From Pseudobdellovibrionaceae bacterium (GTDB lineage Bacteria; Bdellovibrionota; Bdellovibrionia; Bdellovibrionales; UBA1609), in NCBI GenBank assembly GCA_030591685.1, contig JAUVAX010000023.1:1-37587 (forward strand): DNA of 37,587 nucleotides, given 5' to 3'. The notes beneath the pieces were generated by a model. That model was not told where the DNA came from and made no database searches. It was given only the letters and a program-made list of their open reading frames with translations. The position numbers and the translations under genes were made by a program. Of the stretch, positions 1-17,756 are shown in pieces (positions within the stretch are counted from its first letter, which is position 1; each line of letters starts with the position of its first letter).

Positions 1-525
1 CACACAAATATAAGCGCACTTGCCGCACCCAACACATTGAGTTAAATCAATCTGCGGGACCCCTTCCTTGTCTTTTGAAAGGGCGTTCACTCCGGCGGGG
101 CAGCTTTTAAAGCAGTAGTCACAGCGTTGGCCCTGAGTGATGAGGCAGTGCTCTTTTTTAACATGTGCAGTGGCAAATTTTAGCCGCTCAGGGCCCTCTG
201 AGAGTTTGAGCGCCTGGGGCTCGCAGGCCGTTATACACGGCATGTCTTCGCAGTACTCACAGGGCTTGTGATAAGGGTCAATAAAGGGAGTTTTAATGTT
301 TATACCAGCAGAGACAGCGTCGACCAGGTGAATTGCCTCATGGGGGCAGGCTGTTTTGCAATCTCCACAACGCGTACAGGAGATTAAAAACTGATCCTCA
401 GGGATGGCCCCCGGGGGTCGAATGAAGTGTCGTTTAAACTTCATCTTTAGGCCCACTTTAGCCGCATCTATGGCTACTTTTTTGCCTTTTTTAAGCCCAA
501 GTTTAAAAAAATTTCTACGGTCCAA
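1..525 (-). CDS. NapG-like periplasmic ferredoxin, second copy, cut by left edge
   Basis: The 175 visible codons are the N-terminal part; the gene runs off the left edge. Translation starts at TTG (525) after AGGAG with a 5-base spacer, and that ribosome site overlaps the stop of the upstream gene, so the two are probably coupled. The N-terminus MDRRNFFKLG resembles a twin-arginine signal. Cysteine groups follow in the NapG order: CTRCGDCKTACP, CEYCEDMPCITACEP, CLITQGQRCDYCFKSCP, and the start of a fourth, CVGCGKCAYIC. This predicts four [4Fe-4S] clusters. In the NapG family such proteins relay electrons between NapH and periplasmic acceptors. It is the second NapG-like protein of the operon (the other is at 3719-4291). 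Family is confident; which reductase it serves is unknown. Confidence 0.85.
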   Translation of the reverse strand, partial: MDRRNFFKLGLKKGKKVAIDAAKVGLKMKFKRHFIRPPGAIPEDQFLISCTRCGDCKTACPHEAIHLVDAVSAGINIKTPFIDPYHKPCEYCEDMPCITACEPQALKLSEGPERLKFATAHVKKEHCLITQGQRCDYCFKSCPAGVNALSKDKEGVPQIDLTQCVGCGKCAYICV

Positions 526-533
526 AAGAACTC

Positions 534-2156
534 CTAGTAACTGCTGCGCATAACCATGGGTTGAATTACAAACCAAAGGCTAAGCATTCCAATTAAAAAT
601 AATAACACGTAGTGAGTGGTAAATAAAATACGTGTCTGCCCAAGGGTTCCATTAATGTTTTGTATCACCGCGCCCGTGCGCTCTTTAAGTACCTTAACTG
701 AATAGTAAAACCCAAGAGAGATCATAAAAAGCTGAATCCATCTCACTGCAGAGTGGGCTAAAAGGGGGGCTGGCTCAAAGCCCTTAAGTCCAAAAAGGTC
801 CCAGCCGTATCCAAAGGGGTCATTAATGAGGGGGACAAGGTTCGAACCCTCGCCTAAAAAATGCATGGTGTTGTGCCCCACATGGTAGCCAAGAATTAAG
901 GGTATAAAGGCATAAATAAGTTTAGCGCTAATATTTGGTGATTTTAACCGACCATCAACAAAGGCGCAAAACCCTTTATAGAGCGCAAAGGCAAGAGTTA
1001 AAATTAAAATCATAAGTAATGTAAAGGCCGAGAAGTAATTTAAACCCATATAACCCTCTAAAAAGCCGGTCCATTTAAACCAGAGAGGGATCATGGTTAT
1101 CCCATGAAAGTAAGTGAGCACAACGATAACAAAAGCCATCAAGGTCTCATCTTTTCTAAAGCGATTGACCTGTGCTAACCCCGTAGCAGGAGGGCGTAAC
1201 TTTAGAGTTAGGTTATTAGAGTTACAAGAGCGCACACACTCGGTGCAAAGAGTGCAATAGGTGTCCTCTTTTAACTTAAAGGGCACAAGGCTCGTCGGGC
1301 AGGGTGTCGAGTACGGTCCCCCTGTAACACACTCCTTTGTGGTACAAGAATTACAAACATCATCACTTTTTGTTCTTAACTCGAGGGGCGAAAACTGGGC
1401 ATAGACCCCGCTAATGCTCCCCACCGGGCAAACATAGCGACAAAAGGCTCTTTTTTTAAAAACAAGGGCAAAAACAATAGTACTGCCCACAACAAAAAGC
1501 CCCAGTAGGGCCGTTAAGTAAGAGTTATAAGCCACCTCGGCGCCTAACTCTAACCAAGTTAGGACTATAAATAAAACGATGGCAGGGTAAATATTCGAAA
1601 GCGCTCGGGGCCATTTAATATTTAAACTCTGTACTTTGCCCTGAATTCGATGAACCCAACCAAACTGAAAGAGATTTGCAAAAAAGTCCCACGGGCAAGC
1701 AGCACAAAAAAACTTTCCGCCAAAGGCGACAAAAAACACAAGCAGTGTCCACCAAAAAAGCCATGTAAAGGGGGCGGCAAAGTTTGCGCGCGTTCGTCCA
1801 AAAAGACCTGTAGCAATGACTAAAATAAATAACAAGGCAGGGATAACCCTAATAGCAAATGAAAAATAGCGTGACTTTATAGCGCGCTCAACCCCAATAA
1901 TATTAAATAGGTCATATCTTTTTGAGCTTTTAGCGCTCGCCCTTTTTCGAACAAAAAGACCGGCTAAAACAAAAAACACAAGAACTAACGAAAGTCCGAG
2001 GTAATCATTAACCCCTAAACTATGACTCATTATATGCCCTTGATGGGTTTCGGCGCTACTTTGATGGTTCATTTCACTATGGTCGTGGGGGGCTTCGTCG
2101 ATGCTTTGATGGTTCATTTCACTATGGTCGTGGGGGGGGGCGGTATTGTTTTTCAA
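534..2156 (-). CDS. NapH-like membrane polyferredoxin with His/Met-rich N-terminus
   Basis: Predicted integral membrane iron-sulphur protein of 540 residues, about twice the usual NapH length. It begins at TTG (2156), which overlaps the previous stop as TTGA, with AAGGGG upstream. Residues 1-42 are hydrophilic and contain HDHSEMNHQS twice, then HQGH, a pattern typical of copper- or metal-binding segments. Several membrane segments follow, with CAACPWD and CRYVCPVG motifs as in NapH, NosR and CcoG, then further cysteine groups (CNSC, CVTGG, CPTS, CTLCTECVRSC). The C-terminal half has membrane segments with histidines (YHVGHNTMHF) that could bind haem or metal. I infer a quinol dehydrogenase or electron-transfer role. 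Met14 and Met43 are alternative starts that would remove much or all of the His-rich part, but neither has a clear ribosome site. Confidence 0.8.
   Translation of the reverse strand: MKNNTAPPHDHSEMNHQSIDEAPHDHSEMNHQSSAETHQGHIMSHSLGVNDYLGLSLVLVFFVLAGLFVRKRASAKSSKRYDLFNIIGVERAIKSRYFSFAIRVIPALLFILVIATGLFGRTRANFAAPFTWLFWWTLLVFFVAFGGKFFCAACPWDFFANLFQFGWVHRIQGKVQSLNIKWPRALSNIYPAIVLFIVLTWLELGAEVAYNSYLTALLGLFVVGSTIVFALVFKKRAFCRYVCPVGSISGVYAQFSPLELRTKSDDVCNSCTTKECVTGGPYSTPCPTSLVPFKLKEDTYCTLCTECVRSCNSNNLTLKLRPPATGLAQVNRFRKDETLMAFVIVVLTYFHGITMIPLWFKWTGFLEGYMGLNYFSAFTLLMILILTLAFALYKGFCAFVDGRLKSPNISAKLIYAFIPLILGYHVGHNTMHFLGEGSNLVPLINDPFGYGWDLFGLKGFEPAPLLAHSAVRWIQLFMISLGFYYSVKVLKERTGAVIQNINGTLGQTRILFTTHYVLLFLIGMLSLWFVIQPMVMRSSY
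2059..2137. repeat. in-frame 45-bp tandem duplication encoding the metal-binding motif
   Basis: A 34-bp sequence at 2059-2092 recurs without mismatch at 2104-2137. The copies are offset by 45 bp, exactly 15 codons. It lies in the 5' end of the NapH-like gene and doubles the encoded motif PHDHSEMNHQS. Perfect identity at synonymous positions suggests a recent duplication. Confidence 0.95.
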
Positions 2157-2737
2157 CTGGGGACCCCTTTATTTTTATCACTAACATCATTGCGACCCGT
2201 AATGAGCTTTAGTGCGATCACAAACAAGAAAAACAAAGCAATAACAATGTAGAGGCCAAACTTTTGAAAAAACGTTTTTGTAATTTGAAAGGGGATCGTT
2301 ATCTCTACAGATTTTCCATTAGGGTCTTTAAAGCTTGCGGTGAGCACAAGGTCATCTTGTTTTGATATTTCTTTTTGAATGACAAAAATGTTTTCTTGCT
2401 CAGGCGGGGCCAACTCAGTGGCATGAACTAAACTATTGTGCGAAAAGATTTTAAAGCTCGCTGGGTTTTTATAAACTTTATCAGCCTTTATGTCGTAGAT
2501 ATAAAGGTATATGCGAACACTATCAGGGGCCTCGACTTGCTCTAAATTTAGGCCTTGAAAATTATAAACGGTGACATAGACCTCGTAATCGGGAGTTTCT
2601 TTTATAAATTCTAAATAAGGGATCTGAGGGTAGTTTTCAAAATAACTAAAATGGGGGAGCCCTTTATAGTGGTGCGAAAAAACAAGTAGGGGGAATAAAA
2701 AAAATATCGTGCCACAGGCCCAATTAAAGAGTTTCAT
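2153..2737 (-). CDS. unrecognised membrane-anchored periplasmic protein of the nap-like operon
   Basis: I do not recognise this 194-residue protein. It starts at ATG 2737 after a strong AGGAGGT site. It overlaps the end of the preceding napH-like gene by 14 bp and abuts the next gene by a TTGA overlap, so it is firmly inside the operon. An N-terminal signal peptide (about residues 1-21) is followed by SHHYKGLPHFSYFENYP, rich in His and aromatic residues. A domain with beta-strand-like alternation follows, then one transmembrane helix near residues 163-182 and a short basic tail. The topology suggests a periplasmic domain anchored at its C-terminus, reminiscent of FixH/YtkA-type assembly proteins. 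That resemblance is only by general shape. A role in cofactor insertion or assembly for the adjacent ferredoxins is inference. Confidence 0.7.
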   Translation of the reverse strand: MKLFNWACGTIFFLFPLLVFSHHYKGLPHFSYFENYPQIPYLEFIKETPDYEVYVTVYNFQGLNLEQVEAPDSVRIYLYIYDIKADKVYKNPASFKIFSHNSLVHATELAPPEQENIFVIQKEISKQDDLVLTASFKDPNGKSVEITIPFQITKTFFQKFGLYIVIALFFLFVIALKLITGRNDVSDKNKGVPS

Positions 2738-3710
2738 GTTCGACCTCCTGATTAGAGTTTAATTTTAGATTAAGTTTTTGATAAATAGGGTTAAGCCCCA
2801 GGTTAATGTGCCCTTTTGGGCAGTTGTCTACACACTTCATGCAAAGATGGCACGAATAGAGCTGACCTTCTTTAGGGAACAAATCCAGAGGGCACACTGT
2901 CTTACACATAGTGCACCGGCTGGGGCAGGCTTTTTTATCAGCCTTTAGTGTGAAGAGGCTAAATTTACCAATATATGAGAGCAAAAACCCTGTGGGGCAA
3001 ACGGATTTGCAGTACTCATCGGGCACAAGCCCTATATCAAGCACCAAAAGGGCTATTAAAAAATAAATCCCAATTGTAAAATTTGAAAATACAATGATAG
3101 AAAATATCTCTTGAGTAAAAGCAATGTAGGGTAAGATAAAATGCCAAACCCAAGCCCCAAAAAATTGAGTGACAATAAGCCCGCCCCAAAAAACAATCAC
3201 TCGCGTTGTGGGCTCAAGTTTAACAGTCATAAGAGGGATTTTCATTTTCAAAAGATAGTGTCTAATTTTACCTGTGATCGCGTACAACACAGTCATCGGG
3301 CAGAGCCAGGCGCAAAACACTCGGCCAAATAAAAAGGCGATTAAAAAGGGCACTAAACCCCCTAAAAAATACTTTACAGGAAAGCTAAAAGAATTGAGCA
3401 AACTAGATATTAAACCTAGGGGGTCTGACATAGGTACGCCGAGCACAGTAAAAGCCCATAGGGAGCCGTTATTAGAGGTGGCGGCTGTAACCGGGTCCTC
3501 CCACGGAGAATAAAGTATATCAAGCCCCGCATAGAGCTTGCCCGCAGCAGGACCGCTGGCTAGCGAAACAACGTGCGAGTGGTTGTGTGCAATTTTATTG
3601 TTAGCATACCAATTACTGACAGGGATAAAAATAAAAAACAAAACAACACTTATAAGAAAAAAATATCTTATATACTGGTACTTTGATTTTTTAAGCCGTC
3701 TTTTTTTCAT
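2724..3710 (-). CDS. napH: NapH-like quinol dehydrogenase, membrane ferredoxin
   Basis: In the NapH family this membrane protein oxidises menaquinol and passes electrons through NapG to the periplasmic nitrate reductase. I chose ATG 3710 (MKKRRLKK) because AAGGA lies just upstream; the longer reading frame would overlap the preceding gene. A basic N-terminus leads into membrane segments. Two CxxxCP motifs follow (CAWLCPM and CKSVCPTG), as expected for NapH. The cytoplasmic C-terminal part has two ferredoxin groups, CPSRCTMCKTVCP and CHLCMKCVDNCP. The length of 328 residues is close to family size. It lies directly after a NapG-like gene, the usual pairing. Confidence in the family is high; the exact electron acceptor is inferred. 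Confidence 0.85.
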   Translation of the reverse strand: MKKRRLKKSKYQYIRYFFLISVVLFFIFIPVSNWYANNKIAHNHSHVVSLASGPAAGKLYAGLDILYSPWEDPVTAATSNNGSLWAFTVLGVPMSDPLGLISSLLNSFSFPVKYFLGGLVPFLIAFLFGRVFCAWLCPMTVLYAITGKIRHYLLKMKIPLMTVKLEPTTRVIVFWGGLIVTQFFGAWVWHFILPYIAFTQEIFSIIVFSNFTIGIYFLIALLVLDIGLVPDEYCKSVCPTGFLLSYIGKFSLFTLKADKKACPSRCTMCKTVCPLDLFPKEGQLYSCHLCMKCVDNCPKGHINLGLNPIYQKLNLKLNSNQEVEHETL

Positions 3711-3718
3711 GAGTCCTT

Positions 3719-4291
3719 CTAAACGGGTTTTACTCTTATGGCCTGGGGCATATGTATACAGGCCTGTTCGCAAAGGCCGCAGCCCACACAAAAATCAGGG
3801 TGTACAGTGGGCTGTTCGTAGAGGCCCACAGTTAAAGCCTTTCCTGGAAAGGGGCAAGCGCGGTAGCAAACGCCACACGTTCTGCCGTGGTACGAAAAAC
3901 AAAGATCTTTATCTACAGAGGCCGTCCCCATTTTTATTTCTTTATTGATGACCTCCATATCTCGAGAAGTTTCAGTGAGGGCCCCAGTGGGGCACACCTC
4001 TGTGCAGCGCATGCATAAGGTACACGCTTTGCTGCGAGCTACAATTGTGGGGGTGTGTACATTTTCAAAACCGTGTTCAAAACCGGCCATCTCGATGCAG
4101 TCATTAGGGCAGGCAGTAGCGCATTTAAAACACCCAATGCATTGTTCTTTAAATTGGCTTTCTTTAAGAGCCCCGGGGGGGCGCAAAAATCGTTTTCTTT
4201 TTCTAAGGTTTCTTTTTGCCGAAATATAAAAAATCGGCAAAAAGAGAACAACAGCACTTAATAGTGCTAAAAGAAAGCGCCTTCTGTTCAT
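3719..4291 (-). CDS. napG: NapG-like four-cluster ferredoxin
   Basis: This protein of 190 residues has a basic start (MNRRRFLLALL) that could be a Tat-type signal or a membrane anchor, followed by a basic stretch and RPPGAL. Four cysteine groups follow in NapG order: CIGCFKCATACP, CTLCMRCTEVCP, CFSYHGRTCGVCYRACP and CVGCGLCEQAC. They should hold four [4Fe-4S] clusters. The start ATG shares one base with the TAA stop of the cytochrome gene (TAATG), indicating translational coupling. It probably sits between NapH and the periplasmic acceptor. NapF is an alternative name, but the four-cluster layout and pairing with napH favour NapG. This is the first of two such genes in the operon. Confidence 0.83.
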   Translation of the reverse strand: MNRRRFLLALLSAVVLFLPIFYISAKRNLRKRKRFLRPPGALKESQFKEQCIGCFKCATACPNDCIEMAGFEHGFENVHTPTIVARSKACTLCMRCTEVCPTGALTETSRDMEVINKEIKMGTASVDKDLCFSYHGRTCGVCYRACPFPGKALTVGLYEQPTVHPDFCVGCGLCEQACIHMPQAIRVKPV

Positions 4292-4977
4292 TACTCACGA
4301 CTTCTCAAGTAAGAAACAATGTTGTTAATTTCTTTAAGGCTTATGTTGGCCATGCCTCGGTTGTGACCAAACCCTCTCATCGCTGTGCCGGCTCGACCTA
4401 CTTCAATAGTTTTTTTAATGTAGTCATCAGAGGCGACTTTTAAAAATCCAGAAAGTCCAATCCCCGGCCCTGAGCCGCCTTCAGCATAACCCGATCCAGT
4501 AGGTCCGTGGCAAGAGGAGCAGTAGGTTTTAAAAGAGGCTTCGCCAGCCTTTGGGTCGCCGCTAATTTTTTTGTTCCAATCGACTTTGTAGTCTCTGAAA
4601 GTAGCGTAGTTATTTTGCCATGACCGAATGTAAGCAACAACGTCGTCGACCTTATTGGCCACATTAGGCATCACTTTGTAGCCCATCATTGAGGTCCCTG
4701 GTCGGCCCTCCAAAATGGTCCTTTTAATAAAGTTGTCATTAGCGAGCCCTAAAAAATCGGGGCTATTTAGTCGCGGGCCGAGGCCGGCCCGGCCGACTCC
4801 GTCAGCTTGGTGACAGGCCGCACACATTTGATTAAAAACGGTTTTGCCGCTTTCAACCTGTGCGGGGTCTAATTTTACCGTGGTTGCGCTTGGCAAAGGG
4901 AGTGCCTCTTGGCGCTCTTTGCTTTTAGTACAACCAACAAGTCCAAGAGCGATGATTATAAAAAATATTTGTTTCAT
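4291..4977 (-). CDS. di-haem cytochrome c lipoprotein
   Basis: Two class-I cytochrome c domains are joined in one 228-residue lipoprotein. I start it at ATG 4977, giving a signal peptide with lipobox LVGC (Cys16); the longer frame adds five residues without a better ribosome site. Haem motifs CAACH (52-56) and CSSCH (153-157) are each followed by methionine-containing segments (GTSMMGY, GTAMRGF) that may supply the sixth ligand. The gene follows the molybdoenzyme by 15 bp and is coupled to napG. No NapB or NapC is visible, so this cytochrome is the likely electron donor to the reductase. That functional replacement is inference. The fold resembles general electron-carrier cytochromes rather than NapB. 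Confidence 0.87.
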   Translation of the reverse strand: MKQIFFIIIALGLVGCTKSKERQEALPLPSATTVKLDPAQVESGKTVFNQMCAACHQADGVGRAGLGPRLNSPDFLGLANDNFIKRTILEGRPGTSMMGYKVMPNVANKVDDVVAYIRSWQNNYATFRDYKVDWNKKISGDPKAGEASFKTYCSSCHGPTGSGYAEGGSGPGIGLSGFLKVASDDYIKKTIEVGRAGTAMRGFGHNRGMANISLKEINNIVSYLRSRE

Positions 4978-4992
4978 TGTTGTGATCCCCAT

Positions 4993-7701
4993 TTATGATA
5001 GTTTTTCAATACGTGCTGCTAATTTTTTAAAATCCACCTGTCCCGAAACCGGGTCAAAGGCCCGACTTGAAACAGCGTTGACTAACCATTTGTTTTTCTT
5101 CGGGTCAGCAGAGTCGGCAACAGATAAGTTCCAGGGGCTAAACATATAACCCTTAGGGACTGTGTTTCTTGCCGGCTTAACTACTGAGTCTAAGCCAATA
5201 GAGACTCGCGCTTGGTACTCCCCACGCCTGGTAATGAGCTTAACCCACTCGCCATCTTTTACGCCCAATTCTTTTGCGTCTTCGGGGTGCATTTCAACGT
5301 ACTGCTCAGGCACAAGTTTACGTGTTGTACCTGATCTAATTGTTTTTGCTGTATGAAAATGCTCATAAACAACACCGAGGCCTAACCAGAAGGGGTACTT
5401 GTCTTTTGGTATCTTATTCCATTTCTTGCCTCGATGTTCGAAGTCAGGCAAGTCAGGGGTGAGGGCCATATCTCTGGCCTTGACCAATAAATCTAAATTA
5501 TCTATGGCAAAAAAGTCTTTTTCTTGACCAAGCTTCATGAGTTCTTTAGTGATCTCTTTTCTCTGAGAGTAATCTTGATCACAAAAATGCATATGTAGCT
5601 TGCCGTCTTTATGTCTAAATGATCCGTAAGGTTTTTTTGACCACTTGCCCTCTTGGCCCATGTAGCGTCTTTTTGTTCCGCCAGCCATTGCAATTTCAGC
5701 TGTTGGGGCCGGCCACTGGATGCCTCTTAAATCTCTAAGCTGATCATAAAGGCCCTTGCCGGTCTTTTTTTCAACCTCTAGCATGCCGGTAATATCTGAA
5801 TCCGTCCCCTTAGAGGCTTTTACAAAATCTCTAAAGACTTCTTCGGGATCGTAAAATCCGTTTTTCTTTCTCTTATAAGGGAATATTTTATCAGGGTTTA
5901 GCCCGAGCTTTTTAGCAATAAGCTTACCCTTGTCGATAACCATGTCCATGTCTGGTCGGGTGCCCTTAATGGGGTTTCCGGTGCCGTCACATACATAAAG
6001 TCGTCGCTCGGATTGTATATAGACCCCTCCGACCCATTCGCCCCAAGTTGCTGCTGGTAAAATAACATCAGCATAAAGGTTGTTAGGGGCGTGTTTGTAA
6101 ATTTCTTGAACAACAGTAAAAGTTTTAGCAAGAGCGGGTCGGACTAAGTTATGGCTGTCTGGTAAGTCTATATGCGTGGCATAGATTAAGAACATGGCGT
6201 TCACTTCGCCTTTAATCGCTCGCTCCATCATACCAATGGCCATCCCGGGGTTTTCTTGTGTGGCAACTTTTGCTAAATTTTTTCGAGGTATTCCCCAAGC
6301 GTCGGCCATCTTGTTTCGGTGAGCTGTGTTTTTTATGCCGATATTAAACGGGAGTCGACCAGTGAGGCCCCCTGTTAGGCGCTCGCCCATAGCGTTGGGT
6401 TGACCTGTTTGTGAATGACCACCACAGCCAGGGCGCCCTATGTTTCCGGTAAGGGCCATAAGGTTAACTAAGCTGACAGTATTGTTTTGCCCATGGAGAT
6501 GTTGGTTGTACCCAATGCCCCAAATAGACAACACGCCGCCCTTACCCTTTTTTCGCCCTTTAACAGAGGCTTCAGCCCAGATCTTAGCAATTTTATAGAT
6601 CTCTTTTGCAGGGACCATTGTCATGTCTTCGACTTTTTTGGGGTTAAATTTAGCTTTCACTTTTGCAATGTAATTTTCCCATCCATCGACATTCTTTTTT
6701 AAGAATTTGTAGTCTACAGCCTCAGGGTGCTTTTCTAAAATGGCATAGGCTATGGCGTTTTGGATAGAGATATCACCGTTGATTGTTTGAAAGTGATAAG
6801 AGTTTTTTGGGTTTATTTCCTCAAGACCCTGAACCGTTCCTGTTCGTCTTGGGTCAACAACTAATGTAGGTATGTTTTTCATTTTTTTATGATCGGCGGC
6901 TCGCCAAAACAAAATGGGGTGGGCCCCTCGGGGGTTGTGCCCCCAAAATATGATCATGTCAGACTCTTCAACGTCATCATAGCAAGTGGCGGGGGTATCT
7001 GACCCGAAGGTTTTAAAATAACCAGTCACTGCAGAAGTCATACACATGCGGGCATTGGCCTCAATAGTGTTTGAGCCCATGATCCCTTTCATAAAAATGT
7101 TCTCTAGGTACTGCCCCTCTAGTGTAAGCTGGCCAGAGCCGTAAAGACCAATAGAGTTTCCTCCGGTTTTTTTAATGATTTTTACTATATGGTCGGCAAC
7201 AAGCTCTTCGGCTTCGTCCCATGTGGCTTCTCTAAAATCACTGAGTTTAAATGAGCCTTTGGTTTTAGACACGTGCCCTTTAAGGGGGTCTGACATGTCC
7301 TTTCTAATAAGGGGTTTTGTTAAGCGATCCACATAGATGGCCTCAGAAGAGGCAAGGCCCTTAATACACTGAAGGCCCTTGTTTGTCGGGTGATCCTTGT
7401 CAGGTATAACGCCAACAATTTTACCCTTTTTTACTTGTAGTATTGTTCCACACCCAACTCCACAATAGGGGCAGGCGGCTAATAGATTGTTTTTAGACTC
7501 TTTATTAGTGAGCTCATACTCCTCTTGCTTTGTGGAAATGGTGCCGTGAGCTTTATTAGAAGTTAGCGCGCCGAGGGCTGTTGCCGCGACACTCGCTCCG
7601 GCAGATGTTTTAAGAAAATTTCGTCGCCCAAAGCTTGTAGGGGTATGATCTTCTGGTATTCTCTCCATGATTTCGTCTTGTTTTTCACTTTTGTTTTTCA
7701 T
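4993..7701 (-). CDS. napA: NapA-type periplasmic molybdenum oxidoreductase (probable nitrate reductase)
   Basis: Catalytic subunit with a bis-MGD molybdenum cofactor, most likely reducing nitrate to nitrite in the periplasm. ATG 7701 is preferred over an upstream frame start because GGGGAG lies 8 bases before it. The Tat motif FGRRNFLKTSAG covers residues 25-35. One [4Fe-4S] cluster is bound by Cys77, Cys80, Cys84 and Cys112, and NARMCMTSAV supplies the Mo-ligand Cys220. The segment GQPNAMGERLTGGLTGRLP resembles the NapA segment near the active site. At 902 residues it is longer than the roughly 830 of E. coli NapA and nearer to epsilonproteobacterial forms. The cluster motif CPYCGVGC is more NasA- or Fdh-like, so another substrate cannot be excluded. 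No NapD maturation gene is visible. Confidence 0.83.
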   Translation of the reverse strand: MKNKSEKQDEIMERIPEDHTPTSFGRRNFLKTSAGASVAATALGALTSNKAHGTISTKQEEYELTNKESKNNLLAACPYCGVGCGTILQVKKGKIVGVIPDKDHPTNKGLQCIKGLASSEAIYVDRLTKPLIRKDMSDPLKGHVSKTKGSFKLSDFREATWDEAEELVADHIVKIIKKTGGNSIGLYGSGQLTLEGQYLENIFMKGIMGSNTIEANARMCMTSAVTGYFKTFGSDTPATCYDDVEESDMIIFWGHNPRGAHPILFWRAADHKKMKNIPTLVVDPRRTGTVQGLEEINPKNSYHFQTINGDISIQNAIAYAILEKHPEAVDYKFLKKNVDGWENYIAKVKAKFNPKKVEDMTMVPAKEIYKIAKIWAEASVKGRKKGKGGVLSIWGIGYNQHLHGQNNTVSLVNLMALTGNIGRPGCGGHSQTGQPNAMGERLTGGLTGRLPFNIGIKNTAHRNKMADAWGIPRKNLAKVATQENPGMAIGMMERAIKGEVNAMFLIYATHIDLPDSHNLVRPALAKTFTVVQEIYKHAPNNLYADVILPAATWGEWVGGVYIQSERRLYVCDGTGNPIKGTRPDMDMVIDKGKLIAKKLGLNPDKIFPYKRKKNGFYDPEEVFRDFVKASKGTDSDITGMLEVEKKTGKGLYDQLRDLRGIQWPAPTAEIAMAGGTKRRYMGQEGKWSKKPYGSFRHKDGKLHMHFCDQDYSQRKEITKELMKLGQEKDFFAIDNLDLLVKARDMALTPDLPDFEHRGKKWNKIPKDKYPFWLGLGVVYEHFHTAKTIRSGTTRKLVPEQYVEMHPEDAKELGVKDGEWVKLITRRGEYQARVSIGLDSVVKPARNTVPKGYMFSPWNLSVADSADPKKNKWLVNAVSSRAFDPVSGQVDFKKLAARIEKLS

Positions 7702-7895
7702 TAAGGCGTCTCCCCTGTGCGAACGTTCTTGAGCCGTTGCCGTTATCATCCTGTATATACTATCTATTGGTATGATACCCGGCGGTCAAGGGTAAGAAAA
7801 GTGGAATTTAACTTGGCCTCAAGCGGAGCAGTTTTTAAAAACAAACCGGCTCGGCATTTAGGAAAAATATTCACAATATTTAACAAAAAAAGATT

Positions 7896-7931
7896 AATAC
7901 TGACTCAAAAACCAACAAATACTGGGTCAAA
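7896..7931. promoter_or_regulatory. direct repeat with 22-bp period, candidate activator sites
   Basis: AATACTGACTCAAA at 7896-7909 recurs as AATACTGGGTCAAA at 7918-7931, matching at 12 of 14 positions. The 22-bp period is about two helical turns, typical for tandem protein binding on one DNA face. The pair lies about 200 bp upstream of napA. Confidence 0.4.
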
Positions 7932-8012
7932 GTTACCCTGAAATAGATATATGGTAATTCTTTGAGTGAAAACACAGTGGGGGGTATTATTTTTTTTGTT
8001 TAAAAAAATGAA

Positions 8013-8048
8013 GCGGCGCTTCAATCATTTTACAAATTGAAGCTCCGC
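8013..8048 (-). terminator. intrinsic terminator of the small secreted-protein gene
   Basis: A 13-bp stem with one mismatch (8013-8025 with 8036-8048) has a 10-base loop. On the minus strand it is followed by TTCATTTTTTT. It sits about 55 bp after the stop of the gene at 8102-8569 and before the nap-like operon, so it should insulate the two. Confidence 0.7.
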
Positions 8049-8101
8049 CATAACCCCAGTCTTCAAAAAAGTGGGGCCGCCTGTGTTTGCATTCACTGAG
8101 A

Positions 8102-8569
8102 TCAACGCTTTCCTAAAGTAATGCTCTTATGAAACATTGAGTTGGAGCTCTTTGAGTATGTAAAGGATTCCGTTCCAATTTTTACAAGACCCACTTCTCT
8201 TTGAAGGTCAAAATCGTATTGACCGGCAAACTGTATTGGGCTCACTTTGAAACGCATAAACTTCTCTAGGCCCATATAATCAGTTTGTGAAACATCTGGC
8301 TCCATCACCATCCCCAGCACAAGTTTATTTTTATCTAAACTAGGTTCATCAAATATTTTCATAAATGATTTGCTGTAGAAAATAGTTCGACCGGTGTCTC
8401 TTGATCTAATCTTAACATCGATGTACTTATAGGAATGATCTCCTGTTGTGTTTTTTTGTGTAATGCAAAGATCAACATTTCGTTCATTCAGTTGATAGCA
8501 GTTTTCGCTGCCCCACACAGTAGCAGAGCTAAGCGTAAGTAATGAAATCATTACGAGTGAGTTTTTCAT
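8102..8569 (-). CDS. small secreted protein of unknown function
   Basis: I do not recognise this 155-residue protein. It starts at ATG 8569 with an excellent GGAGGA site upstream. Residues 1-20 form a signal peptide (MKNSLVMISLLTLSSATVWG). The mature part has two cysteines near its N-terminus (ENCYQLNERNVDLC), which could form a disulphide, and no transmembrane helix. It looks like a small periplasmic or secreted beta-rich domain. A hairpin terminator follows it, so it is probably transcribed alone. It is divergent from the LuxR-type regulator gene, with which it shares a 113-bp control region. Confidence 0.7.
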   Translation of the reverse strand: MKNSLVMISLLTLSSATVWGSENCYQLNERNVDLCITQKNTTGDHSYKYIDVKIRSRDTGRTIFYSKSFMKIFDEPSLDKNKLVLGMVMEPDVSQTDYMGLEKFMRFKVSPIQFAGQYDFDLQREVGLVKIGTESFTYSKSSNSMFHKSITLGKR

Positions 8570-8596
8570 CTTTTCCTCCGTCTGTTTTGTTCTTAC

Positions 8597-8622
8597 AAGG
8601 AAGGCAACTAACGTACTTCCTT
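8597..8622. promoter_or_regulatory. inverted repeat in divergent control region
   Basis: AAGGAAG (8597-8603) and CTTCCTT (8616-8622) are perfect 7-bp arms with a 12-bp spacer. They lie between the divergent secreted-protein and LuxR-type genes. The site is a candidate operator, possibly for autoregulation by the LuxR-type protein. Confidence 0.35.
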
Positions 8623-8682
8623 CTTACCTTTACTTTATCGATTAAATAGGCGAAAATCTAAATAGACCATGGGGGTTGAATT

Positions 8683-9186
8683 TTGAACGATTCTAATTAC
8701 ATTGAAAAAATTACTGACTCAGAAGTAATCGGTATTTGTGTAAAGTCCCCTGATGGAACAGTTCAGTCTCAGAATAAGACCTGTAAAGAAATTTGTGGCG
8801 ACCAAAAATCTAAAATTTGCACAGAGGGCTGCATGGCGCTTTATAAAAAAAACATAGAGGGCACAAGCTGTATTGGCACTCAAACCTTCAGGGCTCAAAA
8901 CACTGGCGACAGCCTCTACGACATTGTGATGTTAAACGATGGCGAGCAGTTAATAACTATACTTTGCTTGCTGAACGAAAAGCACAAAACTGACATTGAG
9001 TACTTTAAGCAGTTTGGGCTTACAGGTAGAGAGTTAGAGATTGTAGGGTTAGTCATACAGGGGAACACAAACAAAGAAGTATCAGAAAAACTTTTTATTT
9101 CAAAATCTACAATCAAGAGTCACCTCAACAGTATTTACCGAAAAATACCAGCACACGCTGTCACGGTGTTACGAAAAAAGCGTTAA
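8683..9186 (+). CDS. LuxR-type transcriptional regulator with Cys-rich sensor domain
   Basis: This 167-residue protein starts at TTG 8683, preceded by GGGGGT at a good distance; no in-frame ATG is available nearby. The C-terminal part (about 107-160, FGLTGRELEIVGLVIQGNTN then SEKLFISKSTIKSHL) is a LuxR/GerE helix-turn-helix. The N-terminal part has seven cysteines: Cys19, 34, 38, 46, 50, 63 and 95. Two of the pairs are CxxxC. Such a pattern could bind an iron-sulphur cluster or another metal, or act as a thiol switch. It has no receiver domain with a phosphorylatable aspartate. Its position next to the nap-like operon suggests respiratory or redox control, but this is inference. Confidence 0.82.
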   Translation: MNDSNYIEKITDSEVIGICVKSPDGTVQSQNKTCKEICGDQKSKICTEGCMALYKKNIEGTSCIGTQTFRAQNTGDSLYDIVMLNDGEQLITILCLLNEKHKTDIEYFKQFGLTGRELEIVGLVIQGNTNKEVSEKLFISKSTIKSHLNSIYRKIPAHAVTVLRKKR

Positions 9187-9264
9187 AACTTTTTTGAGAG
9201 CGCACGGCCGTGTAGTTTTTTAATCACATTTGCGGTGTTCTTTTTTTACGAAAAGAAAAGTTTT

Positions 9265-9290
9265 AGTAGTGCCAACCTCTCGGCACTACT
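9265..9290 (-). terminator. hairpin between convergent luxR-type and protease genes
   Basis: AGTAGTGCC (9265-9273) pairs perfectly with GGCACTACT (9282-9290) around an 8-base loop. On the minus strand it is followed by AAAACTTTTCTTTT, and on the plus strand by a weaker tract. It lies between convergent genes and may end the protease transcript. Confidence 0.45.
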
Positions 9291-9316
9291 CACTAAAAAT
9301 TAAGGGCCATAAAGCT

Positions 9317-10531
9317 TTATTGGTTTAATACGGTCGCCAGTGCATTTATTACCCCAGCCCCTTGGGCAGAGATAGAAACGCCAAGGTCATCAGCAACCAG
9401 TCCTTGGCTTGAACTGGCAATGCGTAGAGCTTCTACTCCGGCCACATGGGGTGCTGCCATTGAGGTGCCGCTAATGGTGTTATAGCCTCCGTTTTTCCAG
9501 GTGGAGTAAATAGAAACTCCAGGGGCCGCATAGTCTTGAGAGGTGAGTCCAAAATTAGACCAAGAGGCAAAGTTATCAGCACTGTCAGTCGCTGAAACAG
9601 CAATCACTGAAGAGTATCCAGCGGGGATATAATTTGCGATATTAGCCCCGCTGTTTCCGGCAGCAACAACAACAGAGAGGCCGGCTGTAACGGCGGCCTC
9701 TATGGCCGTTTTCATTGGAGAACTTGCATCGGGGTCACCAGAGGCGCCAAGGCTCATGTTTATCACTTGCGTGCCAGCGTTAATGCACTCATAAATACCA
9801 TCAGTCACGTCAGATAAGTATCCGGACCCTCTGCGATCAAGAACTTTAACAGCATACAGGCCGGCCTCTGGGGCCACCCCACCGGTACCAATAGAGTTAT
9901 CTAAAGCCGCAATGGTGCCGCCCACATGTGAACCATGCCCATTGTCATCGTTCCATTTAGATGGGGTAACAGCCCCCTTCATCCTAACGTAGTTGCGGCC
10001 GCCAACGATGTTAGCCGCTAAATCGGGGTGATCATCATTTACACCAGTATCAACGACACAAACGGTAACTCCCAGGCCACGGTTTATGCTATTTGCAGCG
10101 GTGGCTTGAATGTGCGAAATCCCCCAAGGGGTTTGTTGAGGAGGTGGTGAGGTGTCTCCGCCGCCACCGCCGTTGCCGGGCTTGTCTGGTTTTTTTGTTG
10201 GTTGAACTAAGCTTAAAACGGTGTCTTCAAACACAGAAATTTCTTGGAATTTATGCTGAAGTCCCTTGAGGGCTTGGCTGGGGACATTGGCCACAAGTCC
10301 ATTTATAAAATCCATTTCTCGAATTACGTGTCCGCCACTTCGAGCAATTTCTTGGGCCACAGGGCCAAAATCTCCATTAAGGATGATAAGGCGAGAGTTC
10401 ATAGCGTTTGCCGTGGCTGGTTTGCTATTTAAGAGGGACTCGGCTTCAGAAAGGCTTTTTTGTTGATCCTTAGTGCAGCCTACGCTGAAGGCTAAAGCGG
10501 CTAGTAGTGATAATGTAGTGACGGCTTTCAT
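9317..10531 (-). CDS. subtilisin-like serine protease lipoprotein (peptidase S8)
   Basis: A secreted serine endopeptidase of 404 residues. The signal peptide ends in a lipobox with Cys19 (SVGC), so it is probably attached to a membrane on the periplasmic side or exposed at the surface. Residues about 46-110 look like an I9-type propeptide, followed by a Gly/Pro-rich linker (112-134). The S8 catalytic triad is intact: Asp161 (VVDTGV), His199 (NGHGSHVGG) and Ser357 (SGTSMAAPHVAG), with oxyanion Asn293 (AAGNSG). The start ATG 10531 has AAGGAG 10 bases upstream. The gene is monocistronic. Likely roles are nutrient or prey protein degradation, or envelope processing; the sequence does not say which. 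Confidence 0.92.
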   Translation of the reverse strand: MKAVTTLSLLAALAFSVGCTKDQQKSLSEAESLLNSKPATANAMNSRLIILNGDFGPVAQEIARSGGHVIREMDFINGLVANVPSQALKGLQHKFQEISVFEDTVLSLVQPTKKPDKPGNGGGGGDTSPPPQQTPWGISHIQATAANSINRGLGVTVCVVDTGVNDDHPDLAANIVGGRNYVRMKGAVTPSKWNDDNGHGSHVGGTIAALDNSIGTGGVAPEAGLYAVKVLDRRGSGYLSDVTDGIYECINAGTQVINMSLGASGDPDASSPMKTAIEAAVTAGLSVVVAAGNSGANIANYIPAGYSSVIAVSATDSADNFASWSNFGLTSQDYAAPGVSIYSTWKNGGYNTISGTSMAAPHVAGVEALRIASSSQGLVADDLGVSISAQGAGVINALATVLNQ

Positions 10532-17420: not shown

Positions 17421-17756
17421 ATGGCATTTATACTACGAGCTCTAATTATAGGGTACTTGGCTTTTTTGGCAGTACGGTTGTTAAAGGTCCTTATTGCTAA
17501 GATTTCATTAATTCAGCCAGAAGGCCCTTCTGGTGACAGTCGAGGGGCGTCGTCGGGATCTCGTCATAGCGGACTTGATCCGTATCAAGTCTTATCTTTA
17601 AGTCGTCAAGCGAGCCCAGACGAAGTCAAAAAAGCCTACCGACATCTTTTAGCTAAGTATCACCCCGATAAAGTGAGCCACCTGGGTCAAGAGCTTCAAG
17701 AGTTGGCCCATAAAAAAACTCAAGACATTTCATGGGCCTATCGTCAGTTGAGTTAG
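17421..17756 (+). CDS. membrane-anchored J-domain protein
   Basis: A 111-residue protein with an N-terminal transmembrane helix (about residues 3-25), a short Ser/Gly-rich linker, and a C-terminal J domain (about 50-111) starting [20 protein letters not shown]. The signature HPD is present in [12 protein letters not shown] domains stimulate the ATPase of DnaK-type chaperones, so this should recruit a chaperone to the inner membrane, cytoplasmic side. It lacks the Gly/Phe and zinc-binding parts of full DnaJ. The layout resembles small TIM14/DjlA-like co-chaperones. It is divergent from hflK, which is also involved in membrane protein quality control; a link is only suggestive. Confidence 0.87.

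Follow-up and report, generated by a model that had tools for sequence, protein, structure and literature searches.

A second NapG/NapH-type module with an Ig-like protein accompanies a NapA-like reductase across uncultured bacterial phyla

Why would one operon for a NapA-type reductase, the kind of enzyme that opens denitrification and ammonification, carry two NapG/NapH-type modules? The question is raised by the window analyzed here, which is 37,587 nucleotides long and coextensive with contig G000:C19, one of 98 in a 2.66 Mb assembly. A preliminary description had placed two distinct modules of this type in one tight gene chain, and all four of their open reading frames are present on the minus strand, within a chain that fills the window's leftmost 7.7 kb, its neighboring genes either overlapping (by 1 to 14 bases) or separated by gaps within about 8 bases. 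The chain includes a gene missing from that earlier list, here called U, between NapH1 and NapH2. Gene identities were assigned by HMM searches (Pfam, NCBIfam) with curated NCBIfam cut-offs, which none of NapG1, NapG2, NapH1 and NapH2 reached. In the order of transcription, the operon comprises:

4993-7749, minus strand: NapA-like molybdopterin oxidoreductase of 918 residues with a twin-arginine signal (NCBIfam, tree, homologue L018)
4291-4992, minus strand: diheme cytochrome c, a probable lipoprotein (LVGC) with two Cytochrome_CBB3 domains, at the place expected for NapB
3719-4291, minus strand: NapG1, a periplasmic-type ferredoxin with a Tat-like signal/anchor (NapG HMM, hydrophobic segment after RR, tree clade)
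2724-3710, minus strand: NapH1, a NapH-type membrane polyferredoxin (NapH HMM, tree)
2153-2737, minus strand: U, 194 residues with a signal peptide, an Ig-like domain and a C-terminal TM helix (conservation, AF2 model)
534-2156, minus strand: NapH2, a 540-residue polyferredoxin with a TTG start (HMM, invariant residues, topology)
1-525, minus strand: NapG2, a four-cluster ferredoxin with a TTG start, truncated at its 3' end by the contig edge (NapG HMM, tree clade, hydropathy)

Divergent to the operon side, a LuxR-type regulator, Cys-rich in its N-terminal half, is encoded at 8683-9186 on the plus strand, and it may act as a redox or Fe-S sensor of the operon. Upstream of the NapA-like gene we found no convincing FNR-type box. 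Elsewhere, a perfect FNR-type palindrome, TTGATCCGTATCAA, lies at 17575-17588, and the window as a whole holds 33 FNR-like sites against 22.8 in shuffles, with 0 of 100 shuffles reaching 33.

The reductase is related to NapA without belonging to its canonical clade. It scores 356 bits against the NCBIfam NapA model (cut-off 904) and 347 bits against Fdh-alpha, is about 30% identical to canonical NapA, and falls in a separate clade of 20 rows (support 99), which the tree does not firmly place relative to Nas and Fdh. Its Mo-ligand Cys is followed by Met (ARMCMTSAV, compared with ARHCMASAV in E. coli NapA), a Cys-Met pair shared with the molybdenum site of Nap and Nas, whereas Fdh has Cys-His. 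Searching the window and the 80 related loci described below by tblastn, we detected neither NapB nor NapD except at L080, where a canonical nap operon adjoins the NapA-like locus. Among relatives, the neighboring genes encode NapC/NirT cytochromes, NarX/NarL and MoaA/MoeA, and at L085 they include nirE-type and cytochrome genes together with one for a cd1 nitrite reductase; this company favors nitrate, a plausible substrate on such genomic grounds, and the enzyme is most likely a nitrate reductase. At L094, an 897-residue cytochrome c with ten heme motifs (7284-9977) replaces the diheme cytochrome upstream of NapA.

The first pair conforms to expectation. NapG1 matches the NapG/MauM HMM at 1e-40 and carries a hydrophobic segment after the RR motif (KD 3.05), and NapH1 matches the NapH HMM at 4e-27. 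With an exported NapG and a membrane NapH in one operon with the NapA-like gene, this pair is, judged by its sequence features, a true NapGH.

A scan with the NapA-like protein, one genome per species, yielded 120 loci, of which 80 (57-80% identical) were kept. They come from Bdellovibrionota-type genomes, Verrucomicrobiota, Planctomycetota, Gammaproteobacteria, Myxococcales, Cloacimonadota, Eisenbacteria, Latescibacterota, Gemmatimonadota, Binatota and others, and all 80 are titled as MAGs. The usual layout is NapA, NapG1, NapH1, U, NapH2 and NapG2, and an additional NapG or NapGH pair is frequent. Where at least 6.5 kb follows NapA (47 loci), U, NapG1 and NapH1 each occur in 47, NapH2 in 44, the cytochrome in 43 and NapG2 in 42, a recognized NapG2 thus missing in 5 of 47. 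Within one gammaproteobacterial order of 54 genomes, the NapA subfamily is present in 12, all of which also encode NapH2 (Fisher p 2.7e-10, uncorrected table 12/0/2/40); two further genomes have NapH2 with no NapA seen, both operons being cut at a contig end. Counted by operon, the module is found in 14 of 14 operon genomes versus 0 of 20 genomes in which canonical NapA is the sole NapA, absences being soft because the genomes are mostly MAGs. A contig search with NapH2 alone as query returned no relatives; the NapA alignment query did retrieve loci. NapG2, NapH2 and U are an undescribed module that accompanies the NapA-like reductase across many uncultured phyla. In another genome of the same phylum (G139), U and a NapH2-like protein stand alone as a pair, without NapG or a reductase (L019, 6817-8966).

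NapG2 resembles NapG (HMM 2e-32) more than NapF (6e-15) and keeps the RRxFF motif and all four cluster motifs, lacking the hydrophobic Tat stretch. Mean hydropathy after RR is 0.57, versus 2.09 in NapG1; reference NapG, MauM and NosG proteins range from about 1.5 to 2.2, cytoplasmic NapF has -0.38, and at L080 a NapF-type protein has 0.35. NapG2 is therefore probably cytoplasmic, although export may still occur, the RR motif being retained. With no export signal on NapG2, the second pair looks unlike a NapGH quinol dehydrogenase.

NapH2 is nearly twice as long as NapH, which it resembles only in its middle part (NapH HMM, 3e-12, a weak match), and contains two 4Fe-4S motifs and an additional C-terminal membrane domain. 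Across 34 sequences, H351, M355, H425, H428, N429, H432, E436 and M534 are invariant. The positive-inside distribution of loop charge predicts a cytoplasmic location for the Fe-S part; facing the periplasm would be the N-tail, H351, the outward half of the long helix spanning residues 409-445, and the QPMxMR motif at the C-terminus. Many members have an N-tail with abundant His and Met (two copies of HDHSEMNH in the window protein; tails such as MDHSKMDHSTM also occur), and at L090 and L093 visual inspection suggests a YHS-type domain there; the His/Met-rich tail appears inessential, since the relative at L022 lacks it. No structural match to NapH2 was found in a PDB fold search, nor did the protein match the NCBIfam model of CcoG (TIGR02745). 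Plasmid matches from Deinococcus, haloarchaea, cyanobacteria and Sulfurovum were set aside as distant, with no reductase nearby in the contexts examined. A homologue on a Variovorax plasmid (L011, 7938-9260) has lost the Fe-S cysteines and kept YHLAHY and DPFGWGWNLFG, a hint that the membrane domain at the C-terminus could be a separate module. The source genome encodes another NapG/NapH-like pair (L007, 7603-9715, on G000:C65), whose NapH-like protein has a C-terminal extension, beside genes for a copper-type P-type ATPase and the cbb3 oxidase genes ccoNO, ccoP and ccoG.

In U, an invariant HH directly follows the signal peptide and precedes an Ig-like domain, with a helix at the C-terminus; the protein matches no Pfam or NCBIfam family. 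Its AF2 model (pLDDT 83.5) adopts an Ig-like fold, with weak Foldseek similarity (E about 0.02) to the copper proteins CrdA and PmoD. H22, H23, G26 and P28 are invariant in 29 sequences, and the mature protein is predicted to begin with His-His. An N-terminal His forms one half of a copper histidine brace (PMC10952591); the alignment contains no second invariant His outside the HH pair, hence a brace formed by U on its own lacks support.

Taken as a whole, the chain would be a dedicated respiratory operon for one NapA-type reductase, with the first pair as the quinol-oxidizing NapGH and the second pair plus U as a conduit from cytoplasm to periplasm, a picture whose chances we consider evenly balanced. 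Quinol electrons would pass through NapH1 in the membrane and NapG1 in the periplasm to the cytochrome c and the NapA-like enzyme. Cytoplasmic NapG2 would reduce the 4Fe-4S clusters that NapH2 holds on the cytoplasmic side, and NapH2 would conduct the electrons through the membrane to a His/Met/Glu site in the periplasm, beside the His-His N-terminus of U. The most likely task of this second route would be the periplasmic activation or upkeep of the reductase, of its cytochrome or of a metal site, and not the supply of a second terminal acceptor. Gene content, conservation, co-occurrence, the lack of a hydrophobic signal in NapG2, the topology signal and the invariant residues were computed directly; the nitrate substrate, the electron direction, the maturation role and the occupancy of the His/Met site by a metal or heme are inferred. 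By analogy, NapG2, NapH2 and U would form a CcoG-like electron conduit serving the NapA-like reductase, and copper may plausibly be involved. Maturation, metal redox or an extra supply of electrons may each be the purpose of the second module. A bolder version, which we offer only tentatively and think rather unlikely, would see in these loci a widespread nitrate-respiration system so far seen in uncultured bacteria only, in which NapG2-NapH2-U feeds cytoplasmic electrons to a periplasmic site of copper or another metal that the reductase needs; if true, a molybdenum reductase would be tied to a dedicated periplasmic metal-redox device.

Branched quinol oxidation, in which NapH2 and NapG2 form a second quinol dehydrogenase for the same reductase, perhaps working with another quinone or at another potential, would account for the NapH core and Fe-S motifs retained in NapH2, for the four cluster motifs of NapG2 and for the strict association of the module with one reductase. 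However, NapG2, having no hydrophobic signal region, would probably sit across the membrane from the periplasmic enzyme that it should supply, and U and the extra His/Met domain are left unexplained, making this reading possible at perhaps one chance among several.

Somewhat less probable still is that NapH2, U and NapG2 reduce or move periplasmic copper in the manner of CcoG, with an indirect link to the reductase. The His/Met-rich tails of NapH2, with the YHS-type look at two loci, and the His-His N-terminus of U point in this direction, as do the surroundings of related proteins: the Deinococcus NapH2 homologue is preceded by a His-rich protein and lies about 9 kb from a heavy-metal ATPase, and the other NapGH-like pair of the source genome adjoins a copper-type ATPase and a cbb3 oxidase. 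Yet the operon contains no copper enzyme, the relative at L022 lacks the tail, and the His residues of NapH2 could instead be heme or quinone ligands.

The preliminary description had suggested a second acceptor, such as NosZ, encoded past the left edge. NapG2 is truncated there by the contig end, and since the window is the whole contig, the left flank is unreadable in the source assembly; the first 21 bases and the L022 NapG2 protein identified no joining partner among its other contigs. The flank was therefore read in G117, a genome of the same phylum with a complete syntenic operon on one contig (L018 and L022). Its proteins are 80% (NapA-like), 52% (cytochrome), 75% (NapG1), 59% (NapH1), 47% (U) and 47% (NapH2) identical to those of the window, and NapG2 is about 54-55% identical to its 203-residue homologue (L022). 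In G117, moaA lies divergently upstream of the NapA-like gene, and NapG2 is the last gene, followed by a convergent, unrelated DUF255/thioredoxin-type gene. NosZ was found neither in the source genome nor in G117, and searches of the source genome also detected no NirK or NrfA. Among 50 operon-bearing genomes, 12 encode NosZ and 38 have no match. NosZ is therefore neither adjacent nor required, and the suggested second acceptor is not supported.

A NosGH-type identity for the second pair was examined in trees of both protein families, with the clade II nos operon (NosZ, NosG, NosH) of another member of the same family (L021) as a reference. Joining NapG2 with NosG in one clade (p-AU 0.74) or NapH2 with NosH (p 0.14) was not rejected, and NosZ does occur in those 12 genomes. 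Against this, NosH groups with canonical NapH and MauN (support 99, in a tree with long branches), NosG is exported and NapG2 apparently is not, and the complete sister operon stops at NapG2 with no NosZ in the source genome. We regard this reading as largely refuted and very improbable. In the NapG tree, 24 of 24 NapG2 rows lie on one side of a branch (support 98), apart from NapG1, NapG3, canonical NapG, MauM and NosG. A simple recent duplication of one NapGH pair, which membership of both pairs in the NapG/NapH superfamily within one operon might suggest, is ruled out for practical purposes by these trees, in which G1, G2, H1 and H2 from different phyla cluster by type and not by genome, and by AU rejection of window NapG1 and NapG2 (p-AU 0.0013) and of NapH1 and NapH2 (p-AU 2e-114) as sisters.

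The open-access literature searched contains no account of an operon with U, NapH2 and NapG2. A 2025 NapA phylogeny (PMC12769810) took its sequences exclusively from organisms in pure or defined culture, and a culture-based survey would miss this subfamily, all 80 loci being MAG records. Of the four nap operon types listed in a 2026 review, napEDABC, napDAGHB, napCMADGH and napAGHBFLD (PMC13223375), none matches the present layout. Shared with Nap operons are a Tat-exported Mo enzyme with Cys-Met, one NapGH pair, a c-type cytochrome and, in many relatives, a nearby NapC; they differ in that the NapA-like enzyme here lies outside the NapA clade, no NapB or NapD was found, the cytochrome is of the CBB3 type, and U, NapH2 and NapG2 are extra. 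The role of NapGH itself is disputed between quinol dehydrogenase and reductive maturation of NapA (PMC6195509), and the present operon, in which one NapG-type arm is exported while the other apparently stays in the cytoplasm, is a natural test of it.

Among the individual components, NapF shares with NapG2 a cytoplasmic ferredoxin character, a vestigial RR and the lack of a hydrophobic region, but NapG2 is closer to NapG by HMM and is paired with NapH2. NosG and NosH of clade II nos operons likewise belong to the NapG/NapH superfamily and form an extra pair beside a periplasmic reductase, whereas here NosZ is absent, NosH groups with NapH, NosG is exported and NapH2 is nearly twice as long. 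CcoG, a cupric reductase acting on Cu(II), combines two 4Fe-4S clusters with a periplasmic Ig-like domain (PMC7558416). The second module shares with CcoG/RdxA/FixG proteins a membrane component bearing two 4Fe-4S clusters on the cytoplasmic side, and a periplasmic Ig-like part, which here is a separate protein with a His-His N-terminus; an extra membrane domain and a dedicated ferredoxin are further differences. By this analogy, CcoG would be the nearest working model for NapG2-NapH2-U.
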